Assembly (NCBI GenBank): GCA_902761655.1
Contig: CACWLD010000010.1
Location: forward strand, 1-39,986
Direction: 5' to 3'
DNA: 39,986 bases
DNA from: an uncultured Bacteroidia bacterium
GTDB lineage: Bacteria > Bacteroidota > Bacteroidia > Bacteroidales > UBA932
Shown here: piece after piece, positions 5,715 to 23,478 of the stretch
Layout: each line of letters starts with the position of its first letter
Position numbering within the stretch: the first letter of the stretch is position 1
Notes under the pieces: generated by a model
The model's database searches: none
Told to the model about the DNA's origin: nothing
Seen by the model: the letters and a program-made list of their open reading frames with translations, nothing else
Made by a program: the position numbers and the translations under genes

Positions 5715-7037
5715 TTATTTCTGAGTCCTTACAGTTGTGGTTGCCCTGAGGCCGCCGCAGGATACTGTGTAGGACTGTCCGTCCTGAACGTCGTACATAA
5801 AGGCGTCGGCTGTTGCAGGGAAGTACCTTGAGTACTGTCCGATGAGCCTGTTGGCCTCGTCTGCGAGTGAAGGATCTGCGGTCCTGGCCCTCTGCAGATA
5901 ATCTACGGCTACCCAGTAAGGTGCCCTGTTCTCAATCTCGTTTCCACCGCACCTGATGGATCCCCAGATTGTTCCAAGGAGCATATAGGACTTGCCTGCA
6001 AGGCTCTCGTCAAGCTCCACTGCCTTCCTGGCTGCGTCGGCTGCCTTTACGTTCTGGCCGTTCTTGTAGCAGAATGCTGCAAGCTCGTAGTTGTAGTTGG
6101 CGTCTGTGATGGTATCGGAATCAGGAGAAGCGATTGCCTCCTCAAGATACTTGATGGCGTCAGCGGCGTTGCCCCTTACGGAGTTGAGCCTGTAAAGGAA
6201 GTATGCAGAGTTGTAAGAAGGATCGAGCCTGTACATTGCGGTAACGGCGTTGAGGTAGAGGTCGTTGTCCTGGCATCCGTCGGTGTTGCTCATCATCCTT
6301 GCAATGTTGGTAACAAGTGCGAGGTCGTCAGGATTGGCGTTGAACCTGGGGGTGTAGAGCTCGAGCAGGGTCTCGCAGGAAGCAACCTTGCTGGAGATGA
6401 ACACGGTCTCGATGTCGGTCTTGAGCTGGGCGTTCTCAGCTTTCTCCTCATCGTTCTTTCCAGGAATCTTCTCAAGAAGGGAGATGTTGTCGTTATAGGT
6501 GTTGATGATATCCTCTGCGCTAAGGTCGCCGTTCTTGAACATCTCGATTGCGGCGTTGAGCTGGAAGAGGAGGGCCTTGGGATCAACATTCTCCTTGTTG
6601 GCGGCAATGACGTCCTTCAGTCCGTTGTAAAGAGCCTTTGGATCCTTTACGTAGTTGTTCATATCAATTGCCTTGTTGTTGAGGGCAGTAACCGCATAGG
6701 ACGGATAGTACTGAGCCCTGACATCGTGAAGGGTGAGCAGGGTATCAACAAGACCGGCTACATATTGAGGATTGTTGGCGTTCCTTTGGATAAGGGTCCT
6801 GACCAGAGTGGTACCGTTCAGAATGAGGTTCTGGCTTGCCGTAGGAGGGCAGAGCTTGTAAGCGGTTCTCCAGTTAGGAATGGCATCGTCATAGTTCCTC
6901 TGCTTGTAATAATCCTGATAATAAGAGAGGTACTTGATGCACTCTGCGCTGTCAGCGCCATACTTTCCCTGGGCGAAAGCGTTTGTGCCCGTAAGGATCA
7001 TTGCGATTCCCGCAATAGCGATTAAGATTCTTTTCAT
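5715..7037 (-). CDS. Secreted tetratricopeptide-repeat protein
   Basis: 440 residues from the ATG at 7037. An in-frame TTG at 7049 would add four residues, but the ATG directly precedes a clean signal peptide (MKRILIAIAGIAMILTG, ending AFAQ), so I chose it. The mature protein is helical TPR repeats: early copies around YYQDYYKQRNYDDAIPNWRTA and later ones around YNYELAAFCYKNGQNVKAA. The C-terminus carries a short extension ending ATTTVRTQK. Codon use is strongly biased, consistent with high expression. The position between an outer-membrane barrel gene and lptC is typical of Bacteroidales and suggests an envelope-assembly scaffold. No enzymatic motif is visible. Confidence 0.9.
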   Translation of the reverse strand: MKRILIAIAGIAMILTGTNAFAQGKYGADSAECIKYLSYYQDYYKQRNYDDAIPNWRTAYKLCPPTASQNLILNGTTLVRTLIQRNANNPQYVAGLVDTLLTLHDVRAQYYPSYAVTALNNKAIDMNNYVKDPKALYNGLKDVIAANKENVDPKALLFQLNAAIEMFKNGDLSAEDIINTYNDNISLLEKIPGKNDEEKAENAQLKTDIETVFISSKVASCETLLELYTPRFNANPDDLALVTNIARMMSNTDGCQDNDLYLNAVTAMYRLDPSYNSAYFLYRLNSVRGNAADAIKYLEEAIASPDSDTITDANYNYELAAFCYKNGQNVKAADAARKAVELDESLAGKSYMLLGTIWGSIRCGGNEIENRAPYWVAVDYLQRARTADPSLADEANRLIGQYSRYFPATADAFMYDVQDGQSYTVSCGGLRATTTVRTQK

Positions 7038-7062
7038 ATCCTGATTCAATTAGTTTTCAACA

Positions 7063-7161
7063 TTATCTGTAGTAGTTCTTCTGGAACCAAATATCATAAG
7101 TATTGATACCTATGGTGAAGTTTATGTAGTTCTCTTTTACTCCATTATCAATATTTATGCC
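7063..7161 (-). other. Out-of-frame C-terminal tail of the upstream barrel gene
   Basis: Directly after the homopolymer at 7162-7168, the other reading frame continues for about 32 codons to a TAA at 7063-7065. It encodes a barrel-like end: GINIDNGVKENYINFTIG, then INTYDIWFQKNYYR. As I remember the family, relatives end in a similar YDIWF segment. This is seen by reading the minus strand with one base of the 7-base homopolymer skipped. Confidence 0.75.
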
Positions 7162-8389
7162 TTTTTTTGCCAAACTCCATTCCAAAGGTCAGTCCGTTGG
7201 ACAGTTGGAAGACAGGCATTGTGATTCCAAGGGTGATTCCAATGTTGTCCTGCTGTATGCCGTTGAAGGCAAAATAGGACTGTTTCCAGAACACTCCGGC
7301 GCGGTATGCCCACCTGCGGTAGAAGTACCTTACGTCATTGGCGTTGGGGATGTATTCGAAGCCCGCGCGAAGCGCCTGGGCCTTGGTTGTGGTAAACTGG
7401 AAGCCGTCTCCTGCCACTGCCAGTCCTCCTATGGAAGACATTCCGGAATTTGTCCAGTCAGACAGCGTGTAATCCACTTCCGCCCTCCATCTCTGGCCTG
7501 ACTTGAGGGTGATGCCCACTCCAATCTCGCTGCCGAACCTTAATGGCACGGTGGAACGTCCCAGGGTGTCTACTTTATACCTGAGTGTATCGGTGGTAGC
7601 GCCTTTGGAAAGCCTGGTGTCCGTAACGTAACCGTTGATATTGGACCCCATAGTGTATGTGGCGCCCACTCCAAGGGTGACGTTGCCAATGGGCTGCTCG
7701 TACTGGAGACCGAACTTTGCGGTATATCCCTTGAGGACTATCTGGTACGAACTCTCAAGGCTGCTGTATGAAGTGTTCGTGAAAGTGCGGGGGTAGAACT
7801 GCTTTGTGATGTTTCCAAAGTAGTGGATGCCCTCGACTCCCAGGGAGAGGCGGTTCCAGAACGTTACGCCCGCAGCCACGAACAGTTTGTAAGTGCTTCC
7901 CTGTCCCATTGCCGTGGAGTTGATGTCCTTGGTCTGGGAAATGAGGGCGGGATCGTCAATGTACATTGAGTACTTGTATCCCGTGGTGCTGTAAGGCATT
8001 ATTCCCACCATCATCGCAGAAGAGCGGTAGATAGGGAATGATATTACTATGTCCTTGAGGTTGAACAGATTGTTTGCGGAAGTCTTGTCTCCCTGACGGA
8101 GAATTGTGTTTCCCTGATACAGGCTGAAATCCGCCATAAAGGAAAGGGAGTCCCTTGCCGTGACGGCAGCAGGATTCAGGAGGTTGATGTATCTGGTATT
8201 CCTTGAAGCTATTCCAACGCCACCCATAGTCATTGTGTAGGCGTTGCCCTGGTCGAACAGATCTCCTATTCCGAACAGATTGTACGGGGAGTAACCGCTG
8301 TATGCACCATTTTGTGCAAGAGCCGCCGCCGCGCCCGCGCAAGTCAGGATGATGGAGAAAAGTATTCTTTTAATAGCCTGTTTTAACAT
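7148..8389 (-). CDS. Outer-membrane beta-barrel protein (OmpP1/FadL-like), frameshifted near the 3' end
   Basis: 413 residues as read. A signal peptide (residues 1-25, ending ALAQ) is followed by a start typical of a Bacteroidales barrel family: YSPYNLFGIGDL, then TMGGVGIASRN and NLLNPAAVTARDSLSF. Alternating amphipathic strands follow to the end. The open frame stops at 7148 just after a run of seven A residues (minus strand, 7162-7168). Dropping one A would continue the protein to about 441 residues and restore a barrel C-terminus. The break may be a sequencing or assembly error, a real mutation or slippage. The gene starts 52 bases after mfd ends and heads the TPR-lptC-ppiD cluster. Its exact cargo is unknown; FadL-like proteins move hydrophobic molecules. 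Confidence 0.83.
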   Translation of the reverse strand: MLKQAIKRILFSIILTCAGAAAALAQNGAYSGYSPYNLFGIGDLFDQGNAYTMTMGGVGIASRNTRYINLLNPAAVTARDSLSFMADFSLYQGNTILRQGDKTSANNLFNLKDIVISFPIYRSSAMMVGIMPYSTTGYKYSMYIDDPALISQTKDINSTAMGQGSTYKLFVAAGVTFWNRLSLGVEGIHYFGNITKQFYPRTFTNTSYSSLESSYQIVLKGYTAKFGLQYEQPIGNVTLGVGATYTMGSNINGYVTDTRLSKGATTDTLRYKVDTLGRSTVPLRFGSEIGVGITLKSGQRWRAEVDYTLSDWTNSGMSSIGGLAVAGDGFQFTTTKAQALRAGFEYIPNANDVRYFYRRWAYRAGVFWKQSYFAFNGIQQDNIGITLGITMPVFQLSNGLTFGMEFGKKRHKY

Positions 8390-11400: not shown

Positions 11401-11627
11401 GATGAAGGCAGGAAGAATACCCTGTCTCCCTCAACCAGGCTGTAAAGGTCTGCGCTGCAATATTCTGCGCTCTCCTGAGTAGGCAATACAACAAGGTGTA
11501 CGCCTTTGTTTGCTACATTTGAAAGCACGAACCACCGCGCAGAAAGAAATAATCCGCTGCAGAAAACTTCTTTTTGCGTTACCAGCAATCCCTTGATTTT
11601 AGCAGAAGAATCAGAACTTATCAACAC
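8442..11627 (-). CDS. mfd: Transcription-repair coupling factor Mfd
   Basis: 1061 residues. Mfd removes RNA polymerase stalled at DNA damage and recruits UvrA. Residues about 1-320 form the UvrB-like N-terminal modules (APGQFAVRGSIIDIFSY near 163). The RNA-polymerase-interaction domain spans roughly 385-455 (GDYVVHIDHGVGVFGG). Translocase motifs follow: Walker A GDVGFGKT at about 540-547, DEEQ at 641-644, TATPIPRTLQFS, and the QLRGRVGRS arginine-finger motif. The C-terminal TRCF domain closes the protein. No ATG is available near the start: an in-frame stop lies four codons upstream of GTG (11627), followed by TTG, so a non-ATG start is used and the first helix is short compared with E. coli. 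The gene is divergent from ruvB across an AT-rich spacer. Confidence 0.97.
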   Translation of the reverse strand: MLISSDSSAKIKGLLVTQKEVFCSGLFLSARWFVLSNVANKGVHLVVLPTQESAEYCSADLYSLVEGDRVFFLPSSGRKIERSNYKSSLGVQRTAAIGKVVSYSGNDPLFIVSYPEALSELIPDSSTLKSSIFTLKSGEEVSYESVKEALFKAEFEKVDFVSAPGQFAVRGSIIDIFSYSFNDPYRVSFFGDEIEEISVFDCNTQLSKEKVDSMDIISNTVSQDNEGGKPFTDILPKGTIVWLDSSDMYSNQEFFGGLERFSRVYIDSPISHKEVPDVMFRISPQPSFNKNFELLTEDIRARIESGYKVYIYGEKESQLERLRTIFFQNGGLMPEFVNGKNIHNGFIDNENRVCCYSDHEIFDRFHRVTMRRTVEKSEQLTINDLNAINIGDYVVHIDHGVGVFGGLVRMKDDKGRYREVVKLSYKDGDVVFVSVHALNKISRFRSKDGEPPRVNKLGSKAWQALKAGAKSKVKDIAKDLIRLYAKRKASKGFAFSADTYLQKELESSFIFEDTPDQETACEAIKHDMEDSCPMDRLICGDVGFGKTELAVRAAFKAATDGKQVAVLVPTTILALQHFETFRTRLKDFPCTVEYVSRLRTAKEITEIKKQLADGRIDILIGTHKMLGAGFEFKDLGLLIIDEEQKFGVAAKEKLRNLKASVDTLTLTATPIPRTLQFSLLGARDLSIINTPPPNRIPIQTEIILFDEKEIKSILNYELNRGGQIFFLHNKVEELQSIYDILHRLVPDMKICIAHGQMEAKVLEDRMLDFIRGDYDLLLCTTIIENGLDIPNANTIIINQAQNIGLSDLHQLRGRVGRSNKRAFCYLIVPPLISITDEARRRLKAIEEFSNLGSGFNIAMQDLDIRGAGNLLGAEQSGYIAEMGYETYQKILSEAMEELGMESGIKTGGAASDFIVECTIETDLQAYIPDSYIDVQAEKLRIYKQLDSMKKERDINRFQVQLADRFGELPEPALNLFYVVKLRNLGESLGFEKIIVKNGMFIAFFVSNPMSPFYKSDTFQNVLERTASIDNLSLKQSEGKLKVVTRGIDSMQKAYALLQKMK

Positions 11628-11779
11628 TGTTCTTTTTTATTCTGTTAAAAGCCTGTGTAAAACCTTGTTTAAAACCACCCCTTTTGTTTTTGATAAAAAA
11701 GCCGGAAGATTTTTCAACAATTGACAAGCAGGGTAAAAAACAATATCCTAACAGGTATCTGTCTTTATATAGTATTGTG

Positions 11780-11805
11780 TATCAATCTATTGATAAAGTT
11801 ATCAA
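11780..11805. repeat. Two overlapping 16-bp palindromes
   Basis: TATCAATCTATTGATA (11780-11795) and TTGATAAAGTTATCAA (11790-11805) are both perfect inverted repeats with 7-base arms and 2-base centres. They share the central TTGATA arm, so three alternating half-sites are spaced about 10 bases apart. This arrangement would suit a dimeric DNA-binding protein or strand opening. Confidence 0.7.
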
Positions 11806-11853
11806 CATATTAACAGCAGTATTATAACCAACAAAAAATGAATAAAAAAATAT

Positions 11854-17622: not shown

Positions 17623-17638
17623 CACAGATTTATCAACA

Positions 17639-18070
17639 ATGGTCTCATATTATACACAAGACATAGAGTTTACTTTCAAAAATAAGGCCGCAAACAACCA
17701 GTGGCTCAGGCTTGTAGCTGAAAGTGAACTAAAAAAGCTGGGTCCGGTGTCAATTATCTTCTGCTCGGACAATTACATCCTGGATGTAAATATGAAATAT
17801 CTGGGTCACGATTATTTTACCGACATCATTACTTTTGACTATTCCAAGGGAGACAAGATTTCCGGCGACCTTTTCGTGAGCATTGACAGCGTCAGGGAAA
17901 ATGCCAATGAGTACAAGGTGGATTTCAAGGACGAGCTCTACCGGGTCATTGTCCACGGCATCCTTCATCTCATAGGCTATGACGACCACACTCCGGAGGA
18001 GATTGCCCAGATGCGCGCCAAAGAAGATTACTACCTTTCCGTCAGGGAAGCAATGTTCGGTTTTATCTAG
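17639..18070 (+). CDS. ybeY: Endoribonuclease YbeY (rRNA maturation)
   Basis: 143 residues, in the normal range. YbeY is a zinc-dependent RNase needed for 16S rRNA 3'-end maturation and ribosome quality control. The metal motif is HGILHLIGYDDH at residues 106-117: His106 and His110 are in place. At the third ligand position the usual GYDH is here GYDD followed by His, so Asp116 occupies the usual His position and His117 is next to it; Bacteroidota YbeY proteins often vary here. The N-terminal half has the typical DILDVN-like stretch and TDIITFDYS. The stop is followed immediately by the mnmG ATG, indicating translational coupling. Confidence 0.93.
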   Translation: MVSYYTQDIEFTFKNKAANNQWLRLVAESELKKLGPVSIIFCSDNYILDVNMKYLGHDYFTDIITFDYSKGDKISGDLFVSIDSVRENANEYKVDFKDELYRVIVHGILHLIGYDDHTPEEIAQMRAKEDYYLSVREAMFGFI

Positions 18071-19930
18071 ATGTCCTTCCAATATGATATCATAGTAGTG
18101 GGAGGCGGCCACGCCGGATGCGAAGCAGCTATGGCTGCCGCCAACCTCGGATCCTCCGTCCTTCTCATAAGTATGGATATGCTGGGCTTTGCCAAGATGT
18201 CCTGCAACCCGGCAGTGGGCGGAATAGCCAAAGGACAGATCGTCCGGGAGATCGATGCGCTTGGTGGATATATGGGAATGGTCACGGACGATTCCACCCT
18301 CCAGTTCCGTATGCTCAACAAGTCAAAGGGACCGGCAATGTGGAGCCCGCGCGCCCAGTGTGATAAAATCCAATTTTCCCTCAACTGGCGCAAATTGCTC
18401 GAAAGTCATTGTAAATTAGACATTTACATAGATTCTGTCACTTCTTTTCTCTTTGAAAATTCAAAAATCGCGGGGGTGGGTACGACTACCGGTGCAATTT
18501 TCAAATCTCGCGCAGTTATCCTCACCGCCGGAACGTTCCTCTCCGGCAAGCTCTTCATAGGAAGGACTTGCTTTGAAGGAGGCCGCATTGGAGAGCTCGC
18601 TTCGCACGGACTCACCGAGCAATTGAAATCTTTGGGAATCCGGACCGACAGGATGAAGACCGGGACTCCCCCAAGGATTGACATCAATTCCGTCGATACT
18701 TCAAATTTGATCTTGCAGTACGGCGATGCTGACCCGGGCAGGTTTTCCTATTTGCCACGACCTTCCTCAATTCAGAAGAGCGGTGAACAGATGCACTGCT
18801 TCATCCTTCATACCACGGAGGAAGTTCACGAAATCCTTCGAACCGGCTTTAAGGACTCTCCGCTTTTTACCGGGTTGATTCACGGCAAGGGCCCTCGTTA
18901 TTGCCCCAGCATCGAAGACAAACTGCGAGTATTCCCTGACAAGAATACTCACCAGCTTTTCCTGGAACCTCAAGGCAGAAATACTTCCGAATACTATCTT
19001 CAGGGATTTTCTTCTTCGTTGCCTCTTGACGTACAGTTGCGCGCCCTTCACGCAATCCCCGGATTAGAGAACGCAAAGATTTTCAAACCTGCCTATGCTG
19101 TGGAATACGATTATTTCGATCCCACTCAACTCAAGGCTACAATGGAGTTGAAGGATATCGAGAATCTTTATTTTGCCGGTCAGATTAACGGAACTACCGG
19201 TTATGAGGAAGCTGCAGCACAGGGCTTGATTGCTGGAATCAACGCCCATCTGAAACTTGCAGAAAAGGATCCTTTCATCCTTCGCCGCGACAGTTCTTAC
19301 ATTGGTGTTCTCATTGACGATCTCATCACCAAGGGAGTTGATGAGCCTTACCGTATGTTTACTTCCAGGGCTGAGTATAGAATACTGCTTAGGCAGGATA
19401 ACGCGGATCAGAGACTAACGGAGCTATCTCATAACATAGGTCTGGCTTCTGAAGAGCGTTACGCCTTTACTATGGAGAAATATTCTCAGGTTGAGAGACT
19501 CTCCGAGATTGCAGCCAATACAAAAGTGAAGGCTTCTCAGGTAAATGATTTTCTTGAAAGTGTCGGATCTGCAGTGCTGACGGATTCCAAGAAGATGGAG
19601 GAAATTGCCGTGCGTCCCGAAGTATCCCTTGAGGAACTTTTAAAAATTGTTCCACGAGGAACATTTGACAGAGAAGTCATAGAATCCGTTGAAATATCTA
19701 TAAAGTACCGCGGTTATATTGACCGAGAGAAGCAGATGGCTGCCAAGATTCAGCGGTTGGAAGACTTGGCAATTCCAGAGGATTTCGATTTTGACAAGGT
19801 AGCCGGTCTTACCATTGAGTGCCGTCAAAAGCTCAAGAGATACGCACCCCGCACAATAGCCCAGGCTTCCCGTATTTCTGGCGTTTCCCCTGCTGACATC
19901 TCCGTACTTCTGGTCTACTTCGGCCGCTAA
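18071..19930 (+). CDS. mnmG: tRNA uridine-34 carboxymethylaminomethyl synthase subunit MnmG (GidA)
   Basis: 619 residues against about 629 in E. coli. With MnmE it forms cmnm5U at the tRNA wobble position using FAD and methylene-tetrahydrofolate. Visible: the FAD-binding motif [10 protein letters not shown] at residues 11-20, [21 protein letters not shown], the [13 protein letters not shown] motif, TSRAEYR, and the C-terminal helical domain ending [18 protein letters not shown]. The ATG abuts the ybeY stop. Bases 19648-19663 inside the 3' part read as a near-perfect parS site (TGTTCCACGAGGAACA), in a stretch encoding VPRGTF. mnmG is often found near the replication origin in bacteria. Confidence 0.98.
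19648..19663. other. parS-like site inside mnmG
   Basis: TGTTCCACGAGGAACA differs at one central base from the palindrome TGTTCCACGTGGAACA, a known form of the ParB-binding consensus TGTTNCACGTGNAACA. It is 1.13 kb from a second such site at 20777-20792. Coding-sequence location is not unusual for parS. Confidence 0.6.
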
Positions 19931-20013
19931 TTTCCATTTGTTACCATAACTTTTCCTTATATCCATCAGCTAAAGGAAGAAATAGACTCTTCTCTCAAGA
20001 TGATAAGTAATGG

Positions 20014-20145
20014 GAGGCGGGAGGGTGTTGCCTCAGGAAGCCTTCCGCTTCGCTTCATCCCTCCCACTGCGCTACGCTTGTGGGCCCCTCCCGTTCACGA
20101 GGCCACGGGCGGCCACGGGCCCCTGAGGCAACACCCTCCCGCCTC
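20014..20145 (+). repeat. Structured repeat element, copy A
   Basis: A 24-bp perfect inverted repeat (20014-20037 with 20122-20145) encloses 84 bases. Inside are, in order, a conserved segment starting CCTTCCGCTTCGCT (20041-20061), an inner hairpin CCCAC...GTGGG, and a conserved 30-mer at 20090-20119 that includes the tandem 10-mer GGCCACGGGC twice. The two conserved segments recur in inverted orientation in copy B. Confidence 0.85.
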
Positions 20146-20335
20146 TTTTCACTCAAATGACTGCTGGAATTGCAGCATCATTCGCCGCCGTCAGCGGAGT
20201 CCTTTCTCCTCCTTTAGCTGCGTTGAATAAAGATTAGATGTGTTGAGATTTTGTGGAGAAGGTGCTCCATCCCGGTCCCGCCCGTCGCCGCTCGTGGAAC
20301 AGTTTAAGTCCTTTCATCAAGGTGCGACTGACGTC

Positions 20336-20423
20336 CCTGAAACACGGACGTGGGGAGCGAAATAGGGGGTAAAACGCGCCCGTCGTCCTGAAACCCCGGA
20401 CGTCAGGAGCACGGGAGGGGGTA
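20336..20423. repeat. Degenerate direct repeat, two units of about 36 bases
   Basis: 20336-20371 and 20387-20423 both begin CCTGAAAC, continue with CGGACGT and GGAGC, and end in AGGGGGTA. The period is 51 bases. Confidence 0.65.
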
Positions 20424-20505
20424 GCTCAAGAGGGCAGAGGGATCGGCTCAGGATGTCAGGAATGTGTTCTGGAAGACAGTCGAGGAGGGGTTGGGAGGTG
20501 GTGCG

Positions 20506-20591
20506 TGGAAAACCCGTGGCCGCCCGTGGCCTCGTGAACGGGTGGATGGCGCTCGCGCCAGACGGGATGGAGCGAAGCGGAAGGTTTTCCA
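20506..20591 (-). repeat. Structured repeat element, copy B (inverted relative to copy A)
   Basis: 20513-20542 is an exact reverse complement of the 30-mer at 20090-20119, and 20564-20584 matches the reverse complement of 20041-20061 at 20 of 21 positions. The outer stem (TGGAAAACC with GGTTTTCCA) and inner hairpin (TGGCGC, GA, GCGCCA) have different sequences from those of copy A but the same paired layout. Confidence 0.85.
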
Positions 20592-20646
20592 GGTACCCCC
20601 TTCCGCGGACTGGAGCGACTCATTAGGTTTGGGAAGATGCCCGGTC

Positions 20647-20701
20647 AGGCCGGGCATGACGAGAGGCCGTGCATGAAGGGAGGCCGGGTATGACGAGAGG
20701 C
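20647..20701. repeat. Direct repeat, two 21-base units
   Basis: 20647-20667 and 20681-20701 share AGGCCGGG, one variable base, then ATGACGAGAGGC, so 20 of 21 bases agree. The period is 34 bases. Confidence 0.75.
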
Positions 20702-20776
20702 TGGACGTGAGGGGAAATCGGACACGACAGGAGAGTTTGACCGCGGTGGATAGGGGGCGGTTACAAATGTTAAGGG

Positions 20777-20792
20777 TGTTCCACGTGGAACG
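20777..20792. other. parS-like site
   Basis: TGTTCCACGTGGAACG contains a perfect 14-bp palindrome and agrees with TGTTNCACGTGNAACA at all but the last base. It lies 12 bases beyond the 3' end of ruvA. ParB would be expected to load here and condense the origin region. Confidence 0.75.
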
Positions 20793-20803
20793 GTAAGGAG
20801 GCG

Positions 20804-21397
20804 CTAAAGAATTTGTAGGGCGGCCTTGATAAGGTCCTCCACCTTGGCGTCAGGGGTTTTCTTGAGGATGGCCTGGAGAGCCTTGTTCACGTTAGGCTTG
20901 GAGAAGCCAAGCATAACAAGGGCGCGGGCCGCTTCCTCCATAGCCTCGTTGTTGGTCTGGACAAAGAGCTGGCCGGCGGCCTCTCCCTCCCCTTTCACAA
21001 TCTTGTCCTTAAGCTCAAGGATAAGCCTCTGGGCGCTTTTAACTCCAAGGCCCTTTACGCTCTTGAGACGGTTGACGTCCTCCGAGAGGATAGCCTGGTT
21101 GAACTCATCGGAAGTGAAAGTAGACAGGATCATCCTGGCGGAGGCGGCGCCCATACCTGAGACGCCTGTTATCAGGCGGAACAGTTCACGCTCCGCCTTG
21201 GTGGCAAAGCCGTAGTCAACGAAAGAACCGTCGCGCGGGTTGAGCTGACGCTGCACGTATACCGTTGCCTGGGACTTCCCTTCCAGTGCCGAATAAGTCT
21301 GGAGAGAGATCTCAGAAATATAGCCTATTCCCTGATTGTCTATCACTACCTGGGTGGGAGTCAGCTCCGCTACCCTGCCTGAAATATAGTCTGTCAT
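20804..21397 (-). CDS. ruvA: Holliday junction DNA-binding subunit RuvA
   Basis: 197 residues from the ATG at 21397; the open frame runs further upstream, but that extension is antisense to sufS and has no RuvA character. RuvA binds four-way junctions as a tetramer and loads RuvB. Visible: the N-terminal OB fold MTDYISGRVAELTPTQVVID with NQGIGYISEIS, two helix-hairpin-helix motifs around LITGVSGMGAASARMIL and LKSVKGLGVKSAQRLILEL, and the C-terminal RuvB-binding helix bundle from about residue 145. It is divergent from sufS across 55 bases. Confidence 0.97.
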   Translation of the reverse strand: MTDYISGRVAELTPTQVVIDNQGIGYISEISLQTYSALEGKSQATVYVQRQLNPRDGSFVDYGFATKAERELFRLITGVSGMGAASARMILSTFTSDEFNQAILSEDVNRLKSVKGLGVKSAQRLILELKDKIVKGEGEAAGQLFVQTNNEAMEEAARALVMLGFSKPNVNKALQAILKKTPDAKVEDLIKAALQIL

Positions 21398-21424
21398 AAC
21401 AAGAACAAAAATAATAAAAAATGC

Positions 21425-21452: not shown

Positions 21453-22679
21453 ATGACCATTGAACAGCTTCGCAGCCAGTTCCCTATCCTGGAAGAAAAA
21501 GTGTACGGGCGTCCGCTCGTATACCTGGACAACGCGGCCACCAGCCAGCGTCCTGTTTCCGTAGTGGAGAAGTGGAACCAGATCACCCTGAAGAGCAACG
21601 CCAACCTGCATCGCGCGGTGCATAAGCTGGCGGCCGATGCCACAGCCGAGTATGAAAATGCGAGGCAGGCCGCGGCCGACTTCATTGGCGCTGCCGATGC
21701 GCACAGCATAGTGTTCACATCGGGTGCTACGGCAGCGCTGAACTTGGTTGCGTTCTGCTTTGGCGAAGCGTGCATCAAGCCTGGAGACCAGATCATCGTC
21801 ACGGAAGAAGAGCATCACTCCAACATCGTTCCCTGGCAGCTGATGGCTCAGCGCAAGGGTGCGGTGCTCAAGGTTCTTCCCGTGGATGACAATGGCAGGC
21901 TGTGCGTGGAAATGCTGGACGATATGCTCTCCAGCGGAAAGGTTCGCCTGCTGAGCGTGGCGCATATTTCCAATGTGCTGGGCATAGTGAATCCTGTGCA
22001 GGAAATTGTGGCCAAGTGCCATCAGTACGGGTGCGCCGTGATGGTGGACGGAGCCCAGGGAATAGTGCACCAGAAGGTGGACGTGACAGCAATGGACTGT
22101 GACTTTTACGCCTTCTCCGGACATAAGCTGTATGCTGCTCCGGGAACGGGCGTTCTGTACGCAAAGAAACAGTGGCTGGAGGAATTCCCCCCATATATGG
22201 GAGGCGGAGAAATGATAGAGACAGTTCGCTGGACTGGGACAACGTTTGCAAAGCCCCCGCACAAATTTGAGGCTGGAACACAGAATATTTCTGGCGTGCC
22301 AACGCTGGTGCCAGCCTTTGGAATTGCTACCCAAATGAGAGAGCAATCCATTGATTCAGAAGCAATTGCAATTAAAGATTATATTTACGACACCCTTAGG
22401 AAAGACCCTCGCGTAAAACTGTTCGGATGTCCGGACAACCCGCAGGAAAAGATTCCCCTTTTCTCATTCTGCGTGGACGGAGTGCATCACGAGGACCTTG
22501 CCCTGATACTGGACAAGATGGGATTTGCGGTGCGTTCCGGACAGATGTGCGCGGAGCCCCTGATGGACCGTTTTGGAGTTACGGGAATGCTGAGGGTATC
22601 GTTTGCGCCATACAATACAATGCAGGAAGCGCAGCAGTTTATAACAGCCTTGGACAAGGCAGTAAATATGTTGAGATAG
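21453..22679 (+). CDS. sufS: Cysteine desulfurase SufS
   Basis: 408 residues, a type-II cysteine desulfurase that takes sulfur from cysteine for Fe-S cluster assembly. Visible: YLDNAATSQRP near the N-terminus, the conserved EEHHSNIVPWQ (His stacking on PLP), DGAQGIVH, the PLP-binding Lys225 in SGHKLYAAPGTG, and the persulfide-forming Cys366 in RSGQMCAEPLM. The last motif places it in the SufS rather than the IscS group. Its partner SufE domain starts one base after the stop. The sufBCD scaffold genes are not next to it. Confidence 0.96.
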   Translation: MTIEQLRSQFPILEEKVYGRPLVYLDNAATSQRPVSVVEKWNQITLKSNANLHRAVHKLAADATAEYENARQAAADFIGAADAHSIVFTSGATAALNLVAFCFGEACIKPGDQIIVTEEEHHSNIVPWQLMAQRKGAVLKVLPVDDNGRLCVEMLDDMLSSGKVRLLSVAHISNVLGIVNPVQEIVAKCHQYGCAVMVDGAQGIVHQKVDVTAMDCDFYAFSGHKLYAAPGTGVLYAKKQWLEEFPPYMGGGEMIETVRWTGTTFAKPPHKFEAGTQNISGVPTLVPAFGIATQMREQSIDSEAIAIKDYIYDTLRKDPRVKLFGCPDNPQEKIPLFSFCVDGVHHEDLALILDKMGFAVRSGQMCAEPLMDRFGVTGMLRVSFAPYNTMQEAQQFITALDKAVNMLR

Positions 22680-22680
22680 T

Positions 22681-23478
22681 ATGACATTGGAAGAGAAAAA
22701 GCTGCAGGTTGTGGAGGATTTCTCCTTGTACGACGAGTGGCTTGACAAATACGAGTATCTGATAGAGCAAGGTAAGAACCTGGCACCGTTCCCGGAAGAA
22801 TCCAAAACTGAGGATAAACTTATAAAAGGCTGTCAGTCAAGGGTTTGGCTTGATTATGAACTAAAAGACGGCAAGATGTATTTCAAGGCCGATTCCGATG
22901 CCATAATCACCAAGGGAATCATTTCCCTGCTCATTGACGTCTACTCCGGAAGGACTCCCCAGGAGATTGCCGAGGATGACTTTGGATTCCTTGACCAGAT
23001 TGGTCTCAAGGAGAACCTCTCCCCTACCAGGGCGGGCGGCCTGGCCTCTATGGTTGAAACCATAAAGAGGGTAGCGGCCGAAGTCAAGGACAAGAAAGAA
23101 GCCTCAGATGACTCACAGGTGCTCTCTGCTGATGATGTAAAGGAACTGGCCCCGTTGTACGAGAACGTTGTGCTGGCGCTCAAGCAGGTCTATGATCCTG
23201 AGATTCCGGTGAACATCTACGATCTTGGCCTGATTTACGAGATCAACATCAACAAGGACCACAAGGCGTATATCCGTATGACTTTCACCGCACCTAACTG
23301 CCCTATGGCAGATATGGTTATCTCCGATGCGAAAACCTGCGTGGAGGATGTTCCCGGCATTACGGGATGCGACATCGAACTGGTATTCGAGCCTGCCTGG
23401 AACACCAGTATGATGACGGACGAAGCCAGGGTTGCCCTGAATATGGATTTTGACGTAGACGACAATTCTCAGGAATGA
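22681..23478 (+). CDS. SufE sulfur acceptor fused to a MIP18/DUF59 (SufT-like) domain
   Basis: 265 residues with two domains. Residues 1-135 are SufE, which accepts the persulfide from SufS; its active Cys51 is in IKGCQSRVW. Residues about 155-260 are a DUF59/MIP18 domain, with DPEIPVNIYDLGLIY at 172-186 and TAPNCPM at 203-209 (conserved Cys207), a fold used by SufT and the eukaryotic CIA factor for Fe-S maturation. A low-complexity linker (KDKKEASDDSQ) joins them. In Bacteroides I recall these as separate neighbouring genes. The frame is continuous with no sign of sequence error. It overlaps folK by 4 bases (ATGA). Confidence 0.92.
   Translation: MTLEEKKLQVVEDFSLYDEWLDKYEYLIEQGKNLAPFPEESKTEDKLIKGCQSRVWLDYELKDGKMYFKADSDAIITKGIISLLIDVYSGRTPQEIAEDDFGFLDQIGLKENLSPTRAGGLASMVETIKRVAAEVKDKKEASDDSQVLSADDVKELAPLYENVVLALKQVYDPEIPVNIYDLGLIYEININKDHKAYIRMTFTAPNCPMADMVISDAKTCVEDVPGITGCDIELVFEPAWNTSMMTDEARVALNMDFDVDDNSQE

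Follow-up and report, generated by a model that had tools for sequence, protein, structure and literature searches.

Two predicted parS sites at mnmG of an uncultured Bacteroidales bacterium, one of them in frame in the MnmG coding sequence

ParABS homologues together with 1-10 parS sites, mostly clustered, have been described in 12 gut genomes, among them those of Bacteroides caecimuris and Muribaculum intestinale (PMC10197239, in the part of its text available). In a stretch of 39,986 nucleotides from an uncultured Bacteroidia bacterium of the order Bacteroidales, which is referred to throughout as the window, two 16-base sequences lying 1.1 kb apart resemble the palindrome TGTTNCACGTGNAACA, and one of them falls inside a gene for a tRNA-modifying enzyme. 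The locus raises the question of whether these sequences are parS sites of the chromosome, sites for some other protein, a by-product of the enzyme's own sequence, or chance.

The first site, TGTTCCACGAGGAACA, is found at positions 19648-19663 of the forward strand within mnmG, and the second, TGTTCCACGTGGAACG, at 20777-20792 of the same strand in the gap between mnmG and ruvA. Each departs from TGTTNCACGTGNAACA by a single mismatch, exactly as an earlier sequence-only reading of the window had reported. Even when two mismatches are allowed, the window contains no further match; in 100 dinucleotide shuffles of the window the mean was 0.09 matches at that threshold and two matches never occurred (0/100). 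The organism's own genome (2,005,445 bases in 63 contigs) was scanned at up to one mismatch and gave 2 matches, both at mnmG, with 1 match for the pattern read backwards; the sites are not scattered, since 2/2 lie within 1.1 kb. With equal base frequencies, arithmetic predicts about 0.3 chance matches per genome at this threshold, or 0.006 in 40 kb. Once two mismatches are allowed, the genome yields 4 matches versus 13 for the backward control, so that the looser pattern carries no signal and only the strict pattern is informative. A lone site in 2 Mb is unremarkable, but a pair 1.1 kb apart is not.

The gene that holds the first site, mnmG (18071-19930, forward strand), encodes the tRNA uridine-5-carboxymethylaminomethyl(34) synthesis enzyme (TIGR00136, 807.8 bits against a cut-off of 524.85) and matches structure 3cp8 over its whole length. 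Directly upstream is ybeY (17639-18070, forward; TIGR00043, 104.7 bits, cut-off 45), which stands beside mnmG in many relatives too. Downstream, ruvA (20804-21415) is on the reverse strand (TIGR00084, 171.2 bits, cut-off 85) and is followed by sufS (21453-22679, forward), whose copy in the window is without the third parS-like site that is present in 19 relatives. Next to sufS, a single frame at 22681-23478 joins a SufE domain (residues 6-134) to a SUF-associated domain (159-255) and is likely a fusion. The mnmG-ruvA gap (19931-20803) contains the second site and is built of repeats that recur elsewhere in the genome: a segment at about 20480-20605, for example, is found at 91-98% identity on contigs 36, 30, 28, 42 and 19. 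The gap also has a perfect 24-bp inverted repeat (20014-20037/20122-20145) and a direct repeat with a 17-bp step (20647-20731).

Is the association with mnmG peculiar to this genome? In 61 genomes (the organism's own, 36 of its genus and 24 of its order) a site at up to one mismatch was found in 47, and in 30 of the 33 that are at least 90% complete with at most 5% contamination; the total was 97 sites versus 21 for the backward pattern. Within the genus, 27 genomes, the present one included, have any site, and 49 of their 51 sites lie in the mnmG region, the sites there being in mnmG itself, between it and ruvA, within sufS and, once, in hflX; the two outside this region both belong to one genome (G005), on other contigs. 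No site at up to one mismatch was found in 10 of the 37 genus genomes, and in 4 of these mnmG can be read over the place concerned. Three of the four (G008, G015 and G021) retain GTT CCA CGT GGA ACT and miss the threshold by a second mismatch alone, one (G010) has lost the motif, and in the remaining 6 siteless genomes mnmG is absent or partial. A site is present in each of the 14 closed Bacteroidales genomes and is beside mnmG in 13 of them; the other (G239) has two sites, neither of them seen beside mnmG. Across the class Bacteroidia a perfect site is present in 42 of 70 genomes, with none for the backward control, and MnmG is encoded at 26 of the 30 loci examined from these 42 genomes. At the other four MnmG was not seen within 3 kb, two having ybeY alone and two neither gene. 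The sites remain linked to mnmG across the order and, in 26/30 loci, across the class, and both the place and the sequence of the sites are conserved in evolution, as is expected of parS. In a genome from another order of the class (G366), one locus (L242) carries seven perfect parS sequences in a tandem array at steps of about 99 bp, and further sites on three other contigs bring that genome to 12 in all.

The first site is read in frame by the ribosome. Codons 527-531 of mnmG (19649-19663, forward strand) are GTT CCA CGA GGA ACA, giving Val-Pro-Arg-Gly-Thr, and the departure from the palindrome, T to A at position 10, is synonymous and yields the Arg codon CGA. In the predicted MnmG model (mean pLDDT 87), residues 527-533 form the loop that connects helix 520-526 to helix 534-545. 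Of 32 MnmG sequences of the family, 30 have the motif or a close variant of it, and its codons are identical to those of parS in 136 of 143 cases against 34.8 expected from codon usage in the same genes, a count biased upward because most of these loci had been selected for the presence of a site. Among 24 family loci selected by protein, and so unbiased by the site, although some of them nearly duplicate the window and two are contigs of a single isolate, Val-Pro-Arg-Gly-Thr is found in 23. A comparison covered 235 columns in which a residue with four or six codons is conserved; in it the Val, Pro and Gly of the motif each used one codon throughout and made up 3 of only six such columns. More variation is seen at the motif's other two residues: among the 235 columns Arg ranks 18 and Thr 35, and among the 228 left after thinning they rank 9 and 89. 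The other three single-codon columns, 116, 146 and 149, are as invariant as Val, Pro and Gly of the motif. The pentapeptide was found in 0 of 20 MnmG sequences from outside the family that passed a word filter. The codon conservation is directly observed, and selection acting on the DNA would be what fixes these five amino acids of MnmG.

Two other features of mnmG were noted. Codons 112-158 (window positions 18404-18544) form a second patch of unusual codon conservation with many near-invariant neighbours; no parS-like site is present there, and the patch may represent another element within the coding sequence. Part of the genus and family MnmG proteins, including that of the closed genome G190, also carry about 70 to 90 additional residues, inserted directly after the pentapeptide (loci L042, L047, L050, L052, L054, L083, L089, L172 and others).

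The same motif recurs in SufS. In 19 loci a variable loop of SufS holds the parS-written motif VP(R/H)-G/R-T/I, with GTT in 19/19, GGA for 17/17 Gly codons and ACA in 16/19, the Pro codon being CCT in 9, CCA in 8 and CCC in 2. SufS copies lacking the motif, that of the window among them, have different residues at that place. MnmG and SufS are unrelated enzymes and yet share a pentapeptide written by the same kind of DNA site, and for this reason selection on the DNA is the best explanation for the motif.

Both sites in the window are imperfect, and the first has a broken CACGTG core, which speaks against their being parS. Natural variation at the locus bears on this objection. At 52 family loci we counted 88 sites at up to one mismatch (44 in mnmG, 29 in the gap or flank, 14 in sufS and 1 in hflX), related loci being taken separately. 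Of 51 single mismatches, 26 fall at positions 1/16, 18 at 7/10, 4 at 9 and one each at 2, 6 and 11, so that the deviations in the window, at position 10 in the first site and 16 in the second, are at the two most variable position pairs. The core change of the first site is found, on either strand, in 16 of the 88 sites: in mnmG, in SufS and beside mnmG in G190. Five loci whose MnmG is 90-100% identical to that of the window (L212-L215 and L232) all retain the CGA with the other 15 letters unchanged. The variant at the second site is identical in L214 and L232, and L213 has a perfect palindrome at the like place. In Pseudomonas aeruginosa, ParB binds in vitro both sites with an end mismatch and sites with a CACGAG core and a second mismatch, and an intact CACGTG core matters for its affinity (PMC4368675, available text).

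The sequence-only reading presupposed a parB gene in the genome, and one is present on contig 21 (core at 6800-7309), adjoining a parA just upstream (5880-6647 of that contig); the two genes are therefore on another contig than the sites. This is the sole ParB-family gene found in the genome. The best matches of its product among solved structures are Spo0J and ParB proteins, and alignments to these structures place R and G at the positions equivalent to 173 and 201. According to the available text of PMC7383237, R and G are conserved in ParB and Q and R in Noc, and these residues decide between parS and the Noc site. At the relatives' ParB loci, 13 of 16 could be read by the search pattern and R and G are present in 13/13. 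The two sites do not qualify as Noc-binding sites (NBS), the only ParB-family gene found here having R and G and not Q and R. The presence of parA-parB, and the clustering at mnmG that is kept in relatives, lend support to the proposal of the earlier reading that this is a chromosomal centromere (parS) cluster.

If so, where does the cluster lie with respect to the replication origin, to which the earlier reading took the window to be close? Closed genomes that have a site beside mnmG, 13 in number, have dnaA about 0.55 to 2.3 Mb away. GC skew was sampled in two closed genomes, G190, which belongs to the family of the window, and G219, with 20 stretches of 20 kb in each. The best skew origin of G219 is at 1.81-1.85 Mb and parS at 1.804 Mb, with a score reached by 0 of 2000 shuffles; that of G190 falls 20 kb from the parS at mnmG (7 of 2000 shuffles), and in both genomes dnaA taken as the origin gives a negative score. 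Two draft contigs were also read, of which one (G050:C3) has a skew sign change about 70 kb from parS and the other (G016:C1) is ambiguous; the window itself, from a genome in 63 contigs, has no clean skew switch. Words resembling DnaA boxes are not enriched in the window (31 versus 24.9 expected); some are grouped at 17630-17658, in the gap before ybeY, and at 11618-11807, in the gap before ruvB. An origin away from dnaA has precedent: the origin of gut bacteria need not be at dnaA and parS clusters have been used to place it (PMC10197239, available text), and in two Flavobacteriaceae the predicted origin is at mnmG (PMC11278836 and PMC12843772, available text).

Taken on their sequence and context, the two sites are very probably parS sites of the chromosomal ParB, predicted to form a small centromere cluster that lies at mnmG, next to the replication origin. 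The cluster is most likely this bacterium's centromere, and a chromosomal parS cluster is an already known kind of element. By analogy with ParABS systems that have been studied, each 16-mer would be bound by ParB, which would load as a CTP-dependent clamp and spread along the flanking DNA; ParA, whose gene adjoins parB on another contig, would go on to separate the newly copied origin regions. The first site would meanwhile be translated as Val-Pro-Arg-Gly-Thr in the inter-helix loop of MnmG, the second would act from the gap, and in relatives the motif would also be written into the SufS loop.

The near-invariance of the pentapeptide in MnmG (30/32 and 23/24 sequences) would also be expected if it were kept for reasons of the protein, the parS likeness of its codons being a by-product. 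Protein function does not, however, call for codons that agree with parS in 136/143 cases where 34.8 are expected, a count from loci mostly chosen for the site, nor for the complete lack of alternative codons at Val, Pro and Gly; the MnmG sequences read outside the family do without the motif, and the same peptide in like codons appears in SufS, so that we regard this explanation as very improbable. The sites might instead be bound by a different protein, such as a nucleoid-occlusion factor resembling Noc or a repressor acting locally on ruvA or mnmG, given that similar palindromes are bound by relatives of ParB and that the genome's ParB does match the Noc model TIGR04285, although its 242.2 bits are below the cut-off of 315. 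With a single ParB-family gene found, bearing ParB-type residues, and with in-gene sites at two different genes, which is unlike operators, we give this possibility very little weight.

A more serious alternative is that only the gap site at 20777 works and that the mnmG site, with its CGA, is a decayed relic. The broken CACGTG is in its favour, as changes in the core lower affinity in P. aeruginosa (PMC4368675, available text). A relic would hardly keep its remaining 15 letters in L212-L215 and L232, however, and its core change also turns up, on one strand or the other, at mnmG, in SufS and beside mnmG in G190 (16/88 sites, related loci counted separately), while in vitro ParB does bind P. 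aeruginosa CACGAG sites that have a second mismatch (PMC4368675); decay of the first site is accordingly judged unlikely. As for chance, the expectation of about 0.3 matches per genome and the single match of the backward control would leave room for one stray site, but not for two sites separated by 1.1 kb at a position that carries a site in 13 of 14 closed relatives as well, and this positional conservation refutes a reading that we consider scarcely credible.

Compared with the ParABS systems of Bacteroidota in PMC10197239, the present case is alike in its clustered parS and, as judged from closed relatives, in an origin that is not always at dnaA, and differs in mnmG, the in-gene sites and the codon constraint, which go unmentioned in the available text of that paper. 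The parS sites of P. aeruginosa are likewise 16-bp palindromes, perfect or with 1-2 mismatches, and some are intragenic; parS7-parS9 have a CACGAG core like the first site and parS1 and parS4 an end mismatch like the second. P. aeruginosa, however, has ten sites around its chromosome and parAB about 7 kb from oriC, whereas here two sites lie within 1.1 kb and parAB elsewhere (PMC4368675, available text). In the two Flavobacteriaceae, Ori-Finder and GC skew put the origin at mnmG and not at dnaA, much as skew does in the closed relatives G190 and G219; unlike here, parS is not treated in the available text of either paper (PMC11278836, PMC12843772), and in the former a figure legend marks mnmG as ter, contradicting the paper's own text. 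A search of the open-licence literature found no paper whose entry joins parS to mnmG or to a peptide imposed on enzymes.

For the family as a whole, the evidence makes it likely that a loop of MnmG carries parS in frame, that a SufS loop has come to carry it too, either independently or by transfer, that chromosome segregation dictates Val-Pro-Arg-Gly-Thr in both enzymes, and that the centromere of the class Bacteroidia is anchored to mnmG, apart from dnaA and from parAB. The parS sites of Bacteroidota matter the more because no known condensin was found in the two Bacteroidetes of PMC10197239, as far as its available text goes. On this reading the locus would offer a clear natural example of protein sequence being shaped by a signal in the DNA, and mnmG with parS would serve as a simple marker of the origin for Bacteroidia, where dnaA misleads.
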